This document shows positions 2,116 to 6,806 of a stretch of DNA of 44,173 nucleotides, one piece after another. The translations under genes were made by a program, and so were the position numbers. The DNA comes from Fastidiosipila sp. GTDB lineage: Bacteria; Bacillota; Clostridia; Saccharofermentanales; DTU023. The notes beneath the pieces were generated by a model. It saw nothing but the letters and a program-made list of their open reading frames with translations. It was not told the origin of the DNA and did no database searches. Location of the stretch: positions 1 to 44,173 of the forward strand of contig DUQI01000074.1 in assembly GCA_012837885.1 (NCBI GenBank), in the 5' to 3' direction. The first letter of the stretch is position 1; the number at the start of each line of letters is the position of its first letter.

Positions 2116-4998
2116 ATGAAGCGAAGTAAATGGACCAAGGACGGCCTGGTGCTGACCAAAGGCAGCAATGCATCCTACGGGTATCTCGCCCTGTTGCTAC
2201 CGTTCATCATATTGGCGATCGGCTATGCGACGAGACTCGTGTTCCCATTCGGCGACCGTCATATTCTGACCGTCGATCTATACCACCAGTACGCGCCTTT
2301 TTTGAATGAACTGAGAGATAAGATACTGTCCGGCGACAGTCTGTTTTATTCGTTCAGGGGAGGGGCAGGCGTCAACTTCTATGCCCTGCTCGCCTACTAC
2401 CTGGCAAGCCCGCTGAATATTATCCTGGTCATTTTCCCGAAAGCCTTTATCGCCGAAGCCGTCTTGATGCTGACCTTGATCAAGGTGGCGCTTGCAGGCT
2501 ATACATTCAATCTATTGCTCGGCCGGGCGTATCTTCGTACCGGACCTCTGTCCGTCGCGTTTTCCACGATGTACGCCTTGTCGGCATACCAGATGGCCTA
2601 CGCCTGGAATGTGATGTGGCTCGATGCGATCTACACGATGCCGCTCGTCATATTAGGCCTGATTCTCTTGGTCAGAGAGAGAAACTACTGGCTCTATCCG
2701 CTCTCCGTCGCCTATCTTCTGTTCGTCAATTACTACATGGCGATGTTTGTCCTGATCTTCACATTTTTCTACTTCCCGGTGCTACTCTTCCAATTCGCAC
2801 CGCATGGCTGGAAAGAAAAACTGTTTGCCTCGCTCCGCACCTTCGCTCTGACCTTACTCGGTATCGGGATGAGTGCGCTCATGGTGTGGCCGACATTTAA
2901 GTCACTGCAGCTGACGTCGGCCGCCGGTGACGCGTTTCCCACGACGGTGGAATCGACGTTCGAGCTGCTCCATTACTACGGCCAGCACTTCATGCTGCTG
3001 GAGCCGACAGTGCGTGACGGTATGCCGAACATGTACGCCGGGATCTTGCTTCTTTTACTGATCCCGATCTACTTTCTGGCGTCGTCCATCCGCCTCTGGA
3101 AGCGCGTGGCAAACCTCTCGATGCTCGGATTTTTAATCTTGAGCTTCAACACGAATGTCTTGAATTTTCTCTGGCACGGCACACATTTCCCGAATCAGCT
3201 GCCGTACCGTAACTCCTTTGTGTATATCTTCTTTCTAGTTTTCGTCTTGTATGACGCACTGCCGGCGGTCAAGACATTCAGTAACAGGGAACTCGGGTTT
3301 ATCGGTATCGTCTCGATACTCCTCGTCCTGCTATCGGCACCCGATACGCCGCTTCGCTTTACGCCGTTCACTGTCTATCTGACGGTCTTTTTCATGGTGA
3401 TCTATGTGATCATTTTGTCGCGCTTCAAAACGGCCAGACAAAAACGACAACCGATCGCGTTTATCTTGCTGTCGGTCATCTTCTTTGAGATGGTCGTCCA
3501 TACGGGTGGATCACTCTACTATCTCGATAAAAACGAGTATTTCGGGCGACGCGAAGGGTACGCCATTGGCGTCACGGCCGAAGCGATAAGAAAGGCGGAA
3601 GAGATGCTCGAAGAGACGGACGACTCACCGTTTTTCCGGACGGAAATCGTGCCGGATAAAACGTCGAATGATCCGTTTCTCTACGGTCTGAACGGCACCA
3701 CGATCTTCGCCTCGACGATGCGTAAAGCCGGCGTCACTTTCTTTAAAAATCTCGGCTATTCAAGTAACGCCATCAACAGCTACAAATACGACGGGCAGAC
3801 CCTGCTGATGGATTCACTGCTCGGCATCCGCTATCTGATTCATCGTGACAAACTGACGCTCGATGAAAGAAGCCGGGTGATGACCTTGAAAAATGAAGAG
3901 GGCAATGTCTATGTCTATGAAAACCGTCATGCTTTGCCGCTCGGGTACGTCGTCGACAGCGGCGTGACGAATTTTACATCGGACAACAACAGTCCATTCG
4001 GCAACCAGATCCGGCTCGTGCAGGCGATGCTACCGGATGAGCATGTCGCCGATATCTTAAAACCGGTCGATATCATGGTCACCAATAATGTCGGAGGCAT
4101 GCTGACGCCGACCGAGACGTTCGGCCTTTACAGCTTCACGAAAGACGGGGAAGGCAGCGAGGCGACCTATTCGATCTCCTGGAACACGTCGGAAGCGGCG
4201 ACGACCTACCTGGGCGTCGATATCCGGGGTAACAAGGGGCGTCACGCGGAGATCGTGATCAACGATGAAAGGTTCACCTCGTCGATCCGCCGAAGCGGGG
4301 TGATCGATCTCGGCTTCATACCGGAGAACGCGAACGTCGAAGTGAACATCGTGCTCGAAAAGGAAGCCGCGAAGAGCGGCGACCTCGAACTGTATGTGGC
4401 GACGCTTTCCGATAGCGAACTGACGAGAATAACGGAGAGGCTGAACGAGAGTCCGTTCCAGATCGAGTCATTTAAGTCGAGCCGGATCAGCGGCACCGTC
4501 GATGCCAAAGAAGACGGCAAGCTGTTCTTCACGATCCCCTATGATCCGGGCTGGACGATTACGATCGACGGCGAGCCGGTCGACATTGAGGAAGTCGACA
4601 ACAGCCTGATGGCCGTACCGATCACTGCCGGCGAACACCGAGTGATGCTCTCCTTCAGGCCGGACGGATTCGGCACGGGGCTCTTGGTGACGCTTGTTTC
4701 ACTCGTCATCTTTATTCTGCTCACGGTCGTAAGAAGCGTGGTCCTGCCTAAATTCGAAGCGAGACGCGAGAAGGCGAGAGAACAAAAAAGACTCGCCGCC
4801 GGGCTTACCGATTCACTCGAAGCATATGATCCGTATCCGGAGGACGAAGAGGTCCCGTACGGACCGGAAGAACTACCCTCTGCACACTACGTGCATAGCG
4901 ACAGCTACGAAGCACAAGATGAGGTAAAAGAGGAAGCCGTAGTCGAACACGATCTCGACTATCAGTTTAGACCAGGAGACGAAGATGAAAAAGCGTGA
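2116..4998 (+). CDS. YfhO-family polytopic membrane protein
   Basis: The 960-residue product matches the YfhO family, thought to be GT-C-type membrane glycosyltransferase-like proteins involved in decorating wall or lipoteichoic acids. About a dozen hydrophobic segments fill residues 20-460. The first loop carries 'DLYHQYAPFL' and 'FRGGAGVNFYALLAYYLASP', which is the family's conserved region with acidic/aromatic residues expected at the active site. Residues about 470-850 form an extracytoplasmic domain with beta-rich text; a last membrane helix lies near 853-876, followed by a strongly acidic cytoplasmic tail of about 80 residues. The ATG has no good ribosome binding site. The gene overlaps the dCMP deaminase start by 14 bases. 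The acceptor and sugar donor cannot be read from sequence. Confidence 0.85.
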   Translation: MKRSKWTKDGLVLTKGSNASYGYLALLLPFIILAIGYATRLVFPFGDRHILTVDLYHQYAPFLNELRDKILSGDSLFYSFRGGAGVNFYALLAYYLASPLNIILVIFPKAFIAEAVLMLTLIKVALAGYTFNLLLGRAYLRTGPLSVAFSTMYALSAYQMAYAWNVMWLDAIYTMPLVILGLILLVRERNYWLYPLSVAYLLFVNYYMAMFVLIFTFFYFPVLLFQFAPHGWKEKLFASLRTFALTLLGIGMSALMVWPTFKSLQLTSAAGDAFPTTVESTFELLHYYGQHFMLLEPTVRDGMPNMYAGILLLLLIPIYFLASSIRLWKRVANLSMLGFLILSFNTNVLNFLWHGTHFPNQLPYRNSFVYIFFLVFVLYDALPAVKTFSNRELGFIGIVSILLVLLSAPDTPLRFTPFTVYLTVFFMVIYVIILSRFKTARQKRQPIAFILLSVIFFEMVVHTGGSLYYLDKNEYFGRREGYAIGVTAEAIRKAEEMLEETDDSPFFRTEIVPDKTSNDPFLYGLNGTTIFASTMRKAGVTFFKNLGYSSNAINSYKYDGQTLLMDSLLGIRYLIHRDKLTLDERSRVMTLKNEEGNVYVYENRHALPLGYVVDSGVTNFTSDNNSPFGNQIRLVQAMLPDEHVADILKPVDIMVTNNVGGMLTPTETFGLYSFTKDGEGSEATYSISWNTSEAATTYLGVDIRGNKGRHAEIVINDERFTSSIRRSGVIDLGFIPENANVEVNIVLEKEAAKSGDLELYVATLSDSELTRITERLNESPFQIESFKSSRISGTVDAKEDGKLFFTIPYDPGWTITIDGEPVDIEEVDNSLMAVPITAGEHRVMLSFRPDGFGTGLLVTLVSLVIFILLTVVRSVVLPKFEARREKAREQKRLAAGLTDSLEAYDPYPEDEEVPYGPEELPSAHYVHSDSYEAQDEVKEEAVVEHDLDYQFRPGDEDEKA

Positions 4999-5482
4999 AG
5001 ATTATATCAGCTGGGATGAGTACTTCATGGGCATAGCGCTGCTCGCCGCGAAGAGAAGCAAGGATCCGAACACACAGGTCGGTGCCTGCATCGTGAACGA
5101 GCAAAACAAGATCATCAGTATCGGCTACAACGGCATGCCGAGAGGTTGCGACGATGATCTGTTCCCGTGGGCGAGAGAAGGCGCGTATCTCGATACGAAG
5201 TATCCGTACGTCACGCATGCTGAACTGAACGCCATCTTGAACAGCTCCGGTTTCAACCTCGAAGGCTGCAAGATCTACGTGCCGCTGTTTCCCTGCAACG
5301 AATGCAGCAAAGCGATCATCCAATCGGGCATCAAACACGTCTATTATCTATCCGACAAATACGCTGAAACGGATCAGGTGAAAGCTTCCAAACGCATGTT
5401 CGATGCGGCCAAGATCGCCTACGAACCGCTCATCACCACGATCCTGACCTTGACGCTCGACTTCGACGCGAGCCGCGTGTAA
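4985..5482 (+). CDS. comEB: dCMP deaminase
   Basis: Converts dCMP to dUMP, feeding thymidylate synthesis. The 165-residue protein has the zinc-dependent cytidine deaminase signature: HAE at 78-80 (zinc ligand plus catalytic glutamate) and PCNEC at 103-107 (two zinc-binding cysteines). The early 'SKDPNTQVGACIV' and 'GYNGMPRGCDD' are typical of deoxycytidylate deaminases. Length is normal. Start chosen because AGGAGA precedes the ATG at the right spacing within the end of the YfhO gene; the 14-base overlap suggests translation coupled to it. The next 89 bases hold the SOS promoter region and no terminator. Confidence 0.93.
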   Translation: MKKREDYISWDEYFMGIALLAAKRSKDPNTQVGACIVNEQNKIISIGYNGMPRGCDDDLFPWAREGAYLDTKYPYVTHAELNAILNSSGFNLEGCKIYVPLFPCNECSKAIIQSGIKHVYYLSDKYAETDQVKASKRMFDAAKIAYEPLITTILTLTLDFDASRV

Positions 5483-5486
5483 CAAG

Positions 5487-5500
5487 AAAACAATTGTTCG
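5487..5500 (+). promoter_or_regulatory. LexA-like half-conserved site 1
   Basis: AAAACAATTGTTCG matches CGAAC-N4-GTTCG at 8 of 10 fixed positions, with a perfect right arm. Its centre is 28 bp upstream of the perfect site, close to three helical turns. Confidence 0.5.
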
Positions 5501-5507
5501 ATAACCG

Positions 5508-5536
5508 TTGACTCCGAACACATGTTCGGATATACT
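5508..5536 (+). promoter_or_regulatory. SOS promoter
   Basis: TTGACT (5508-5513), a spacer of exactly 17 bp and TATACT (5531-5536) form a near-consensus housekeeping promoter. The spacer is occupied end to end by the perfect LexA palindrome, so repressor and RNA polymerase cannot bind together. It drives the 71-residue membrane protein and the thioredoxin-like gene. Confidence 0.9.
5515..5528 (+). promoter_or_regulatory. LexA/DinR box (perfect)
   Basis: CGAACACATGTTCG is an exact match to the Gram-positive LexA consensus CGAAC-N4-GTTCG, extended by one more C/G pair on each side. It lies between -35 and -10. Confidence 0.92.
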
Positions 5537-5544
5537 CACAAACA

Positions 5545-5558
5545 GAAACAAATGTTCG
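5545..5558 (+). promoter_or_regulatory. LexA-like half-conserved site 3
   Basis: GAAACAAATGTTCG matches the LexA consensus at 8 of 10 fixed positions with a perfect right arm. It lies over the expected transcription start and leader, 30 bp downstream of the perfect site, ending just before the ribosome binding site. Confidence 0.5.
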
Positions 5559-5571
5559 TGAGGTTGTTATT

Positions 5572-5787
5572 ATGCCGTTGGTCAATGGTTTGCTGTTTTT
5601 AGTACTGATACTGGTAGGTCTCGTTGGTTACGGGGTCGTGCATCGCTTTGAAAAGCGTGAGTCGAAGTTATATCTTGAATGGGTTGAGAAACAGTTGGAT
5701 CATGATGTGACAACGGAACCGGTTCTCAGAGTGCATCGGTTTCGTAGAGAGGACGGTATAACAGTCAATGGCAAGAAAGCTGGCTAG
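5572..5787 (+). CDS. SOS-controlled single-pass membrane microprotein
   Basis: I do not recognise a family. The 71-residue product has one hydrophobic helix (residues about 5-23) followed at once by basic residues (HRFEKRESK), which predicts an outside N-terminus and a cytoplasmic, strongly charged tail of about 48 residues. TGAGG eight bases before the ATG is the ribosome binding site. The gene is the first behind a LexA-regulated promoter. Known SOS genes of this size and shape encode cell-division inhibitors (YneA in Bacillus, SidA in Caulobacter), so a checkpoint role is the leading inference, but it lacks the LysM domain of YneA and appears to have the opposite orientation. Its last 20 bases overlap the thioredoxin-like gene. 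Confidence 0.8.
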   Translation: MPLVNGLLFLVLILVGLVGYGVVHRFEKRESKLYLEWVEKQLDHDVTTEPVLRVHRFRREDGITVNGKKAG

Positions 5788-6085
5788 AAGAAAGACGACG
5801 CAGGAACCGATCGGGGAAAAAGGAGAGATCTTATTTTTTTATCTGGCACACTGTCCGCACTGTCTGCGTGCGCGGCAATTGATGGCACAGGTCTTTTCGA
5901 ATCACCCGGAGTACAAGACGATTCCGATCCGCGAGATCAATGAGCGTAAAGAGCCGGAGATCGCCGACGCCTATGACTATTATTACGTACCGACCTATTA
6001 TGTGGACGGGAAGAAAGTGCACGAAGGCGTGCCGACCTATGAGAAAATCAAGGCCGTGTTCGAAGCGGCCGCCGCGAGCGATTGA
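5768..6085 (+). CDS. Cytoplasmic thioredoxin/glutaredoxin-like protein (CPHC)
   Basis: A 105-residue protein with a thioredoxin fold: first strand 'ILFFYLAHC', redox motif CPHC at residues 29-32, and the cis-proline segment 'YVPTYYVDGKK' at about 73-83. There is no signal peptide; the N-terminus is very basic (MARKLARRK), so it should act in the cytoplasm or near nucleic acid. It starts inside the end of the SOS-controlled microprotein gene (20-base overlap), with GAGGACGG upstream as ribosome binding site, so it should be DNA-damage-inducible too. The partner is unknown; a glutaredoxin-like reductant for a repair or nucleotide-reducing enzyme is possible. A strong terminator follows. Confidence 0.8.
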   Translation: MARKLARRKTTQEPIGEKGEILFFYLAHCPHCLRARQLMAQVFSNHPEYKTIPIREINERKEPEIADAYDYYYVPTYYVDGKKVHEGVPTYEKIKAVFEAAAASD

Positions 6086-6098
6086 TCTTCATATAAAA

Positions 6099-6806
6099 CT
6101 AATTGACCGAATCGGTGAGGAGATCCATCAGATCCCTCACCTCTTTTTTTGTCAGCATACGGTAGCGGCCGCTCTTTAGATTCCCCAGATTGATATGCAT
6201 GATCCTGATACGGGTCAATGCGACGACGGTCAGACCGACCGATTTCGCCATCTTTCTGATCTGGCGATTAAGCCCCTGTTTTAAGATGATGCGGTACGTG
6301 TGGGTGCCGGTCGGCGTGATCTTGCACGGCAATGTTTTCACACCGTCCAGGATGACGCCTTCTTCCATCTCTTTGAGCGCTTCCGGCGTATGCGCTTTGT
6401 CGACGGTCACGGCATATTCTTTTTCATGTCCGTTTTGCACGCGCAGGATGCGGTTTACGATGTCGCCATCGTTTGTCAAAAGGATCAGGCCGTCTGAATC
6501 ACGGTCGAGCCTGCCGACAGGGAAGATGCGCTTCGGGTAACCGATGTAGTCGATGATGTTGTCTCGTCGCCTCGGGTCGGTCGTTGTCGTCACGTTGATC
6601 GGTTTGTTGAACGCCATATAGATCAACTCGTCTTTCGTAACGGGCTCGATTTTCTTGCCGTCGATCGTCACCACATCACCTTTTTTGATGTCGACACCGA
6701 GCGGCGCGATTTCACCGTTTAAAAGCACCTTGCCGGCTGCCAGTAAACGGTCTGCCTGACGACGGCTGCAATGGCCGGAAGCGGCGATGTAGCGGTTAAT
6801 CCTCAC
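6099..6806 (-). CDS. rluF: RsuA/RluF-family rRNA pseudouridine synthase
   Basis: Converts a uridine in 23S rRNA to pseudouridine. The 235-residue protein begins with an S4 RNA-binding domain ('RINRYIAASGHCSRRQADRL', residues 2-50) and then the catalytic domain with 'FNKPINVTTT' and GRLDRDSDGL at 98-107, whose D101 is the catalytic aspartate. The end 'GLNRQIRKM' is the usual RsuA-type motif. Subtype RluF is the closest by motif text but RsuA/RluB cannot be excluded. Its start overlaps the end of the sensor kinase by 11 bases, so it is the third gene of the regulator-kinase operon. Its 3' end doubles as the terminator of the convergent SOS unit. Confidence 0.88.
   Translation of the reverse strand: MRINRYIAASGHCSRRQADRLLAAGKVLLNGEIAPLGVDIKKGDVVTIDGKKIEPVTKDELIYMAFNKPINVTTTTDPRRRDNIIDYIGYPKRIFPVGRLDRDSDGLILLTNDGDIVNRILRVQNGHEKEYAVTVDKAHTPEALKEMEEGVILDGVKTLPCKITPTGTHTYRIILKQGLNRQIRKMAKSVGLTVVALTRIRIMHINLGNLKSGRYRMLTKKEVRDLMDLLTDSVN
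6114..6150 (+). terminator. Intrinsic terminator of the SOS unit, inside rluF
   Basis: GGTGAGG (6114-6120) pairs with CCTCACC (6135-6141); GATC/GATC extends the stem inside with one bulged A. It is followed by TCTTTTTTT. It lies wholly within the last codons of the opposite-strand pseudouridine synthase gene. Confidence 0.85.

Follow-up and report, generated by a model that had tools for sequence, protein, structure and literature searches.

We found that a gene encoding a 71-residue single-helix membrane protein is almost certainly under LexA control, judging from the operators at its promoter. The gene was located in the window, which here means the whole stretch of DNA analysed (44,173 nucleotides; contig C50 of a 1.93-Mb genome in 121 contigs, 92% complete, from an uncultured member of the Clostridia). 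It overlapped a thioredoxin-like gene, and because of this overlap the two genes probably form one co-transcribed operon under SOS control. The complete reading, in which the unit is an SOS operon and the microprotein delays cell division, may be given slightly less than an even chance. The features are listed in Table 1.

Table 1. Features at the microprotein locus (positions in the window)
Feature	Position	Strand	Basis or remark
dCMP deaminase gene	4985-5482		ends 6 nt before LexA box I
LexA box I, AAACAATTGTTC(G)	5488..5499	+	G001 counterpart at the same place is AAACAATTGTTCG
-35 hexamer TTGACT	5508..5513	+	sequence; kept in G001 and the second genus
LexA box II, perfect core GAACACATGTTC, fills the promoter spacer	5516..5527	+	same register in G001, G014 and G029
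-10 hexamer TATACT	5531..5536	+	sequence; 17-bp spacer after TTGACT
LexA box III, AAACAAATGTTC, between promoter and ribosome site	5546..5557	+	counterpart in 5/5 second-genus genomes
Likely ribosome-binding site GAGG, 8 nt 5' of ATG	5560..5563	+	sequence
71-aa single-helix membrane microprotein	5572..5787	+	ORF; G001 homologue; dN/dS about 0.33; AlphaFold helix
Predicted transmembrane segment, about residues 3-22	5578..5637	+	hydropathy and charge tally; charges only after the segment
Thioredoxin/glutaredoxin-like protein, 105 aa, CPHC	5768..6085	+	PF13192; start overlaps microprotein gene end by 20 nt
Likely intrinsic terminator, GGTGAGG...CCTCACC then T run	6114..6148	+	inverted repeat and T run; terminator scan did not list it

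LexA boxes at the promoter and in the genome

The first-pass annotation had described a promoter of TTGACT, 17 bp and TATACT with a perfect LexA box in its spacer, and the sequence confirmed all of these elements at 5508-5536. The spacer box stood, but two flanking boxes at 5488 and 5546 had been missed. The spacing from box to box was 28 and 30 bp. When the loose motif GAACNNNNGTTC was searched with one mismatch allowed, 29 matches were found in the window compared to 24.6 expected, which meant no enrichment. A lone match to the loose motif therefore carries little weight, and its one-mismatch count was rejected as evidence. Since that count was near chance, the argument was based on the tighter motif RAACANNTGTTY. 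This motif gave 14 sites in the 1.93-Mb genome, three of them inside 70 bp at the microprotein promoter. A rough Poisson estimate put such a cluster at the order of one in a million.

The genome encoded one LexA (218-aa ORF, TIGR00498, E 5e-57), and CGAACTATTGTTTG was found 5' of its own lexA. The motif RAACAWWTGTTY was present at five sites in the 1.93 Mb. Three were at the microprotein promoter, one was 32 bp 5' of an ORF that we take from its sequence to be RecA, and one was directly 5' of an ORF that we likewise take to be RuvC. The same box motif gave nine sites in the same-genus genome G001, including those 5' of recA, ruvC and the microprotein gene, and the lexA of G001 was preceded by a box of the own-lexA form. 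In Clostridioides difficile, surface plasmon resonance has confirmed that LexA binds lexA, recA and ruvC operators of this form (PMC4234289). A host LexA recognising a different sequence had been named earlier as an outcome that would speak against LexA control. This was not observed, because the boxes of the genome's own lexA, recA and ruvC matched and those of G001 and C. difficile agreed.

The lexA gene was located on a different contig from the microprotein gene, with another gene divergent to it. The protein divergent from lexA (L001 1826-2419, + strand; G001 L097 444-1070, - strand) had one helix near its C-terminus and belonged to no Pfam family. Such a one-helix protein was also present in several genomes of a second genus, at the place where other Clostridia have yneA.

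The microprotein, its homologue and its positional counterparts

The microprotein sequence was MPLVNGLLFLVLILVGLVGYGVVHRFEKRESKLYLEWVEKQLDHDVTTEPVLRVHRFRREDGITVNGKKAG. Its N-terminus had 24 residues without charge, followed by a charged tail. The ORF, the hydropathy and the charge tally agreed with the first-pass annotation of 71 residues, one N-terminal membrane helix and a charged tail. AlphaFold, which was given two sequences, modelled a single helix over residues 2-45 with the rest of the tail disordered (mean pLDDT 66); confidence was low beyond one helix. No significant match was obtained in Pfam, NCBIfam, PHROGs, PDB, phage and plasmid searches, and a single-protein search of genome contigs and viral contigs gave nothing significant. 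A LysM domain was absent in Pfam and NCBIfam scans. Both earlier statements, that the protein belongs to no known family and carries no LysM domain, were thus borne out. With its almost certain LexA control, a length under about 120 aa and one helix, the protein fits the description of the small membrane SOS division inhibitors.

A 66-aa homologue with 48% identity was found in G001 (DUPJ01000013.1). The gene order also matched: YfhO, dCMP deaminase, two LexA boxes, the homologue, thioredoxin-like, pseudouridine synthase and histidine kinase. Whether homologues also lie behind LexA boxes had been proposed as a check, and the G001 homologue kept both promoter and boxes. Comparison of the two genes gave pN 0.35 and pS 0.64, and dN 0.47 and dS 1.42 over 66 codons, corresponding to a dN/dS of about 0.33; the value was 0.35 in the N-terminal 37 codons. 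The synonymous excess was clearest in the true frame. This conservation under purifying selection in a same-genus genome indicates that the microprotein ORF is a real gene. A profile from the two-row alignment, run against the 38 family genomes, gave accepted matches in the two genomes of the genus and in no other. The other weak matches were parts of longer frames or stop-bearing frames and were rejected, leaving two true homologues, both in one genus.

The neighbour at 5768-6085 was thioredoxin-like, with a PF13192 match over the cut-off (E 3e-7) and the CxxC motif CPHC. In G001 the thioredoxin-like gene started 3 nt after the microprotein homologue. The neighbours in the window were chromosomal housekeeping genes. 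The 3' side of the dCMP deaminase gene was a variable slot, and it was inspected in the 22 family genomes where a deaminase was found. Five genomes of the second genus (G014, G019, G029, G002 and G008) carried there a LexA-boxed gene for a protein of 105-119 aa with an N-terminal helix, no charge ahead of the helix and a long charged tail. In G027 of the same genus the gene was absent 3' of the deaminase, and in G023 there was no deaminase match. The slot was empty in several genera. In the other deaminase-bearing genera of the family the pseudouridine synthase gene followed directly, with nothing between; in the remaining family genera no deaminase locus was detected.

An hhalign comparison between the proteins of the two genera gave a probability of 12% and an E value of 0.0026 over 33 columns. 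Because this profile similarity is weak, we call the second-genus proteins positional counterparts, not proven homologues. Their Pfam and NCBIfam matches were weak and scattered, each in one or two members. The thioredoxin-like gene was considered as a marker of the locus and rejected, since in the second genus its relative was away from the locus and had no LexA box before it; in several genomes it followed an amylase-like gene. The first-pass annotation had found the microprotein gene itself, but it had missed the thioredoxin-like gene that overlaps it, as well as the positional counterparts.

When the promoters of the seven genomes were aligned, TTGAC and a downstream box-like element were present in 7/7, and the third element was degraded in G001. 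The spacer box was kept in G000, G001, G014 and G029. It was absent from G019, G002 and G008, which kept the downstream one. The box-in-spacer layout was thus intact in 2/5 second-genus genomes, and LexA boxes were kept at the locus. The box shared with the genome's own lexA, recA and ruvC, together with the box and promoter conserved in G001, strongly supports LexA control, as the first-pass annotation had claimed. A conserved AAACCGAACAWAGTTTTC was also seen in the second genus just 5' of the -35 hexamer (L122, L123, L124, L126 and L129), at about the place of box I and off the box spacing.

In all seven proteins of the family, 19-24 uncharged residues were counted from the start, with charged residues afterwards. 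From this distribution, the microprotein is predicted to be N-out/C-in with a cytoplasmic tail. YneA-like proteins of the class, scored identically, served as a contrasting control. They had most of their positive charge before the helix and were predicted C-out. The cytoplasmic tail of the first-pass annotation therefore gained support from the charge in seven proteins, as a prediction. It is weaker in G014 and G029, because these proteins have little positive charge after the helix.

Promoter layout in the order and the class

The layout was searched as the fixed pattern TTGACNNNGAACNNNNGTTYNNNTANNNT, which accepts exact layouts only, and the reversed pattern was used as a control. In 188 genomes of the order, 13 pattern matches and no control matches were obtained. 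The 13 comprised four microprotein genomes, seven lexA genes in second-genus genomes, and two sites upstream of a YlxM-Ffh-like pair, which look like chance. In the window's genome the microprotein gene was the sole match.

Although rare in the order, the layout was common across the class: of 391 genomes drawn from the class, 92 contained the pattern, with one control match. Outside the order there were 106 distinct sites, whose gene names we assigned from the sequences and whose LysM domains were called by sequence motif, not by profile. At least 62 of these sites drive small YneA-like genes with a transmembrane segment and LysM, and a divergent lexA was visible at 47 of them. Among the remaining 44, some preceded dinB, uvrB or genes of unassigned kind, and at others no clear ORF was within reach. 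DAP-seq mapping of Clostridium thermocellum LexA placed a lexA-divergent yneA-like gene among the conserved targets (PMC8457756). The layout therefore marks LexA-controlled promoters, most often those of YneA-like genes. It shows regulation and not function, because dinB and uvrB are also driven by it.

Other genes were observed in the course of the search. A recurrent protein of about 193-203 aa was found behind a box-in-spacer promoter in several class genomes (L208, L211, L212, L235, L237 and L239). Two related proteins of 92-100 aa (GIFVK.NYK...GKY.KDGW) followed the same layout (L188 and L189). A further genus of the family had perfect LexA boxes followed by a small protein gene and then a dinB-like polymerase gene (L107, L108, L109 and L111).

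A possible role in division and its alternatives

In the proposed mechanism, LexA would occupy up to three boxes, one of them between -35 and -10, and keep the promoter off; this step is strongly supported by the sequence. DNA damage would lead to RecA-triggered cleavage of LexA and release the promoter. The first product would be the 71-aa protein, anchored by its N-terminal helix in the N-out/C-in orientation suggested by charge, and the thioredoxin-like protein would be co-induced. The microprotein would most likely delay division during repair, with the helix binding the division machinery and the tail on the cytoplasmic face. Such helix-mediated binding is likened to what YneA, SosA and SidA are thought to do.

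We rate the division-delay role as about even. It is favoured indirectly by the exact layout, which drives YneA-like genes at 62 or more of the 106 sites elsewhere in the class. In bacteria other than those with SulA, SOS inhibition of division is usually the task of small membrane proteins with one helix (PMC13396833, PMC6851548), and a C. difficile lexA mutant forms filaments (PMC4689574). However, dinB and uvrB share the layout, the topology is predicted to be the reverse of that in YneA and SosA, and LysM is absent. The similarity between the genera is weak, 3/5 second-genus genomes are without the spacer box, and another membrane protein holds the lexA-divergent position, typical of yneA, in the genus.

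YneA of Bacillus subtilis and the YneA-like proteins of Clostridia resemble the microprotein in being SOS-controlled and small with one N-terminal helix. They also share the promoter with a LexA box in the spacer, which is common in Clostridia yneA (at least 62 class sites) and not strictly defining. YneA blocks septal wall synthesis, contacts FtsW via its helix and needs the outer LysM domain (PMC13396833). YneA is N-in/C-out and lies beside lexA. In contrast, the microprotein is predicted C-in, lacks LysM and any sequence match to YneA, and its gene is not divergent from lexA. SosA of Staphylococcus aureus (77 aa) is closer in some respects, as it has one helix, SOS control and no LysM. However, its C-terminal part was shown outside and the outer tail is needed for activity (PMC6851548), whereas the microprotein tail is predicted inside. 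The known Gram-positive SOS division inhibitors are described with an outside C-terminus. SidA and DidA of Caulobacter crescentus are likewise very small proteins with one helix, and they inhibit division by acting on FtsW or FtsN. They come from an unrelated phylum, DidA is SOS-independent, and the likeness is by description, not by sequence.

The microprotein could also be a non-homologous replacement of YneA, fast-evolving and of inverted topology, which stops division from the cytoplasmic side and is coupled to a thioredoxin in one genus. We consider this possible but rather unlikely. A second SOS inhibitor could be missing from the genome, because it is 92% complete.

The main rival to the division role is a depolarising SOS peptide, which in the manner of TisB would lower membrane potential and growth and lead to dormancy, not to a division block. 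TisB of Escherichia coli is likewise an SOS-induced small membrane protein. The small hydrophobic helix, the rapid sequence change between genera and the tight multi-box repression are consistent with such a peptide. However, the proteins keep to a plan with a charged, helix-forming tail of 40-90 residues, more than depolarising peptides usually have, and TisB is shorter and without a long charged tail. This explanation appears unlikely.

Alternatively, the lexA-divergent one-helix protein (L001 1826-2419) could be what inhibits division in this lineage, leaving the microprotein with another SOS task; this is distinctly unlikely. That protein occupies the classical yneA position and is N-in/C-out in plan, and its start codon and that of lexA have one LexA box between them in the window's genome. 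However, its length is 197-292 aa, and its N-terminus is long and of low complexity. In the second genus, where found, it starts well over 150 bp from lexA and the boxes are close to lexA.

The microprotein might instead work with the thioredoxin-like protein that is probably transcribed with it, as its partner or its anchor in the membrane, in thiol repair or in the reduction of ribonucleotides during the SOS response. The two genes overlap or adjoin in both genomes of the genus, and a deoxynucleotide gene (dCMP deaminase) is just upstream. However, the LexA-controlled membrane protein of the second genus has no adjacent thioredoxin, and the unboxed relatives there lie elsewhere, which makes such a partnership quite improbable. 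Holin-like proteins of the BhlA/UviB kind, released on DNA damage and known from UV-induced bacteriocin genes, have the same overall plan as the microprotein (one N-terminal helix and a cytoplasmic charged tail), but such an identity is very unlikely, as no holin family matched in Pfam or NCBIfam, no BhlA/UviB was found in Pfam at E up to 1, the single PHROG holin match (G001 homologue, E 0.24) was not significant, no phage or plasmid relatives were found, and the neighbours are chromosomal housekeeping genes.

A role of the microprotein in delaying division would matter beyond this genome. Few lineages have known SOS division inhibitors, and these arose repeatedly from unrelated small membrane proteins. 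The locus provides a candidate inhibitor in a clade in which the search gave no YneA-type promoter. With an almost nil reversed-pattern background, the promoter-plus-box pattern picks out LexA-controlled genes across Clostridia, YneA-like ones among them. It is a practical handle for listing and testing further SOS microproteins that lack annotation. If the division-delay role is true, a protein predicted to face the other way from YneA and SosA would show that the outward domain is dispensable.
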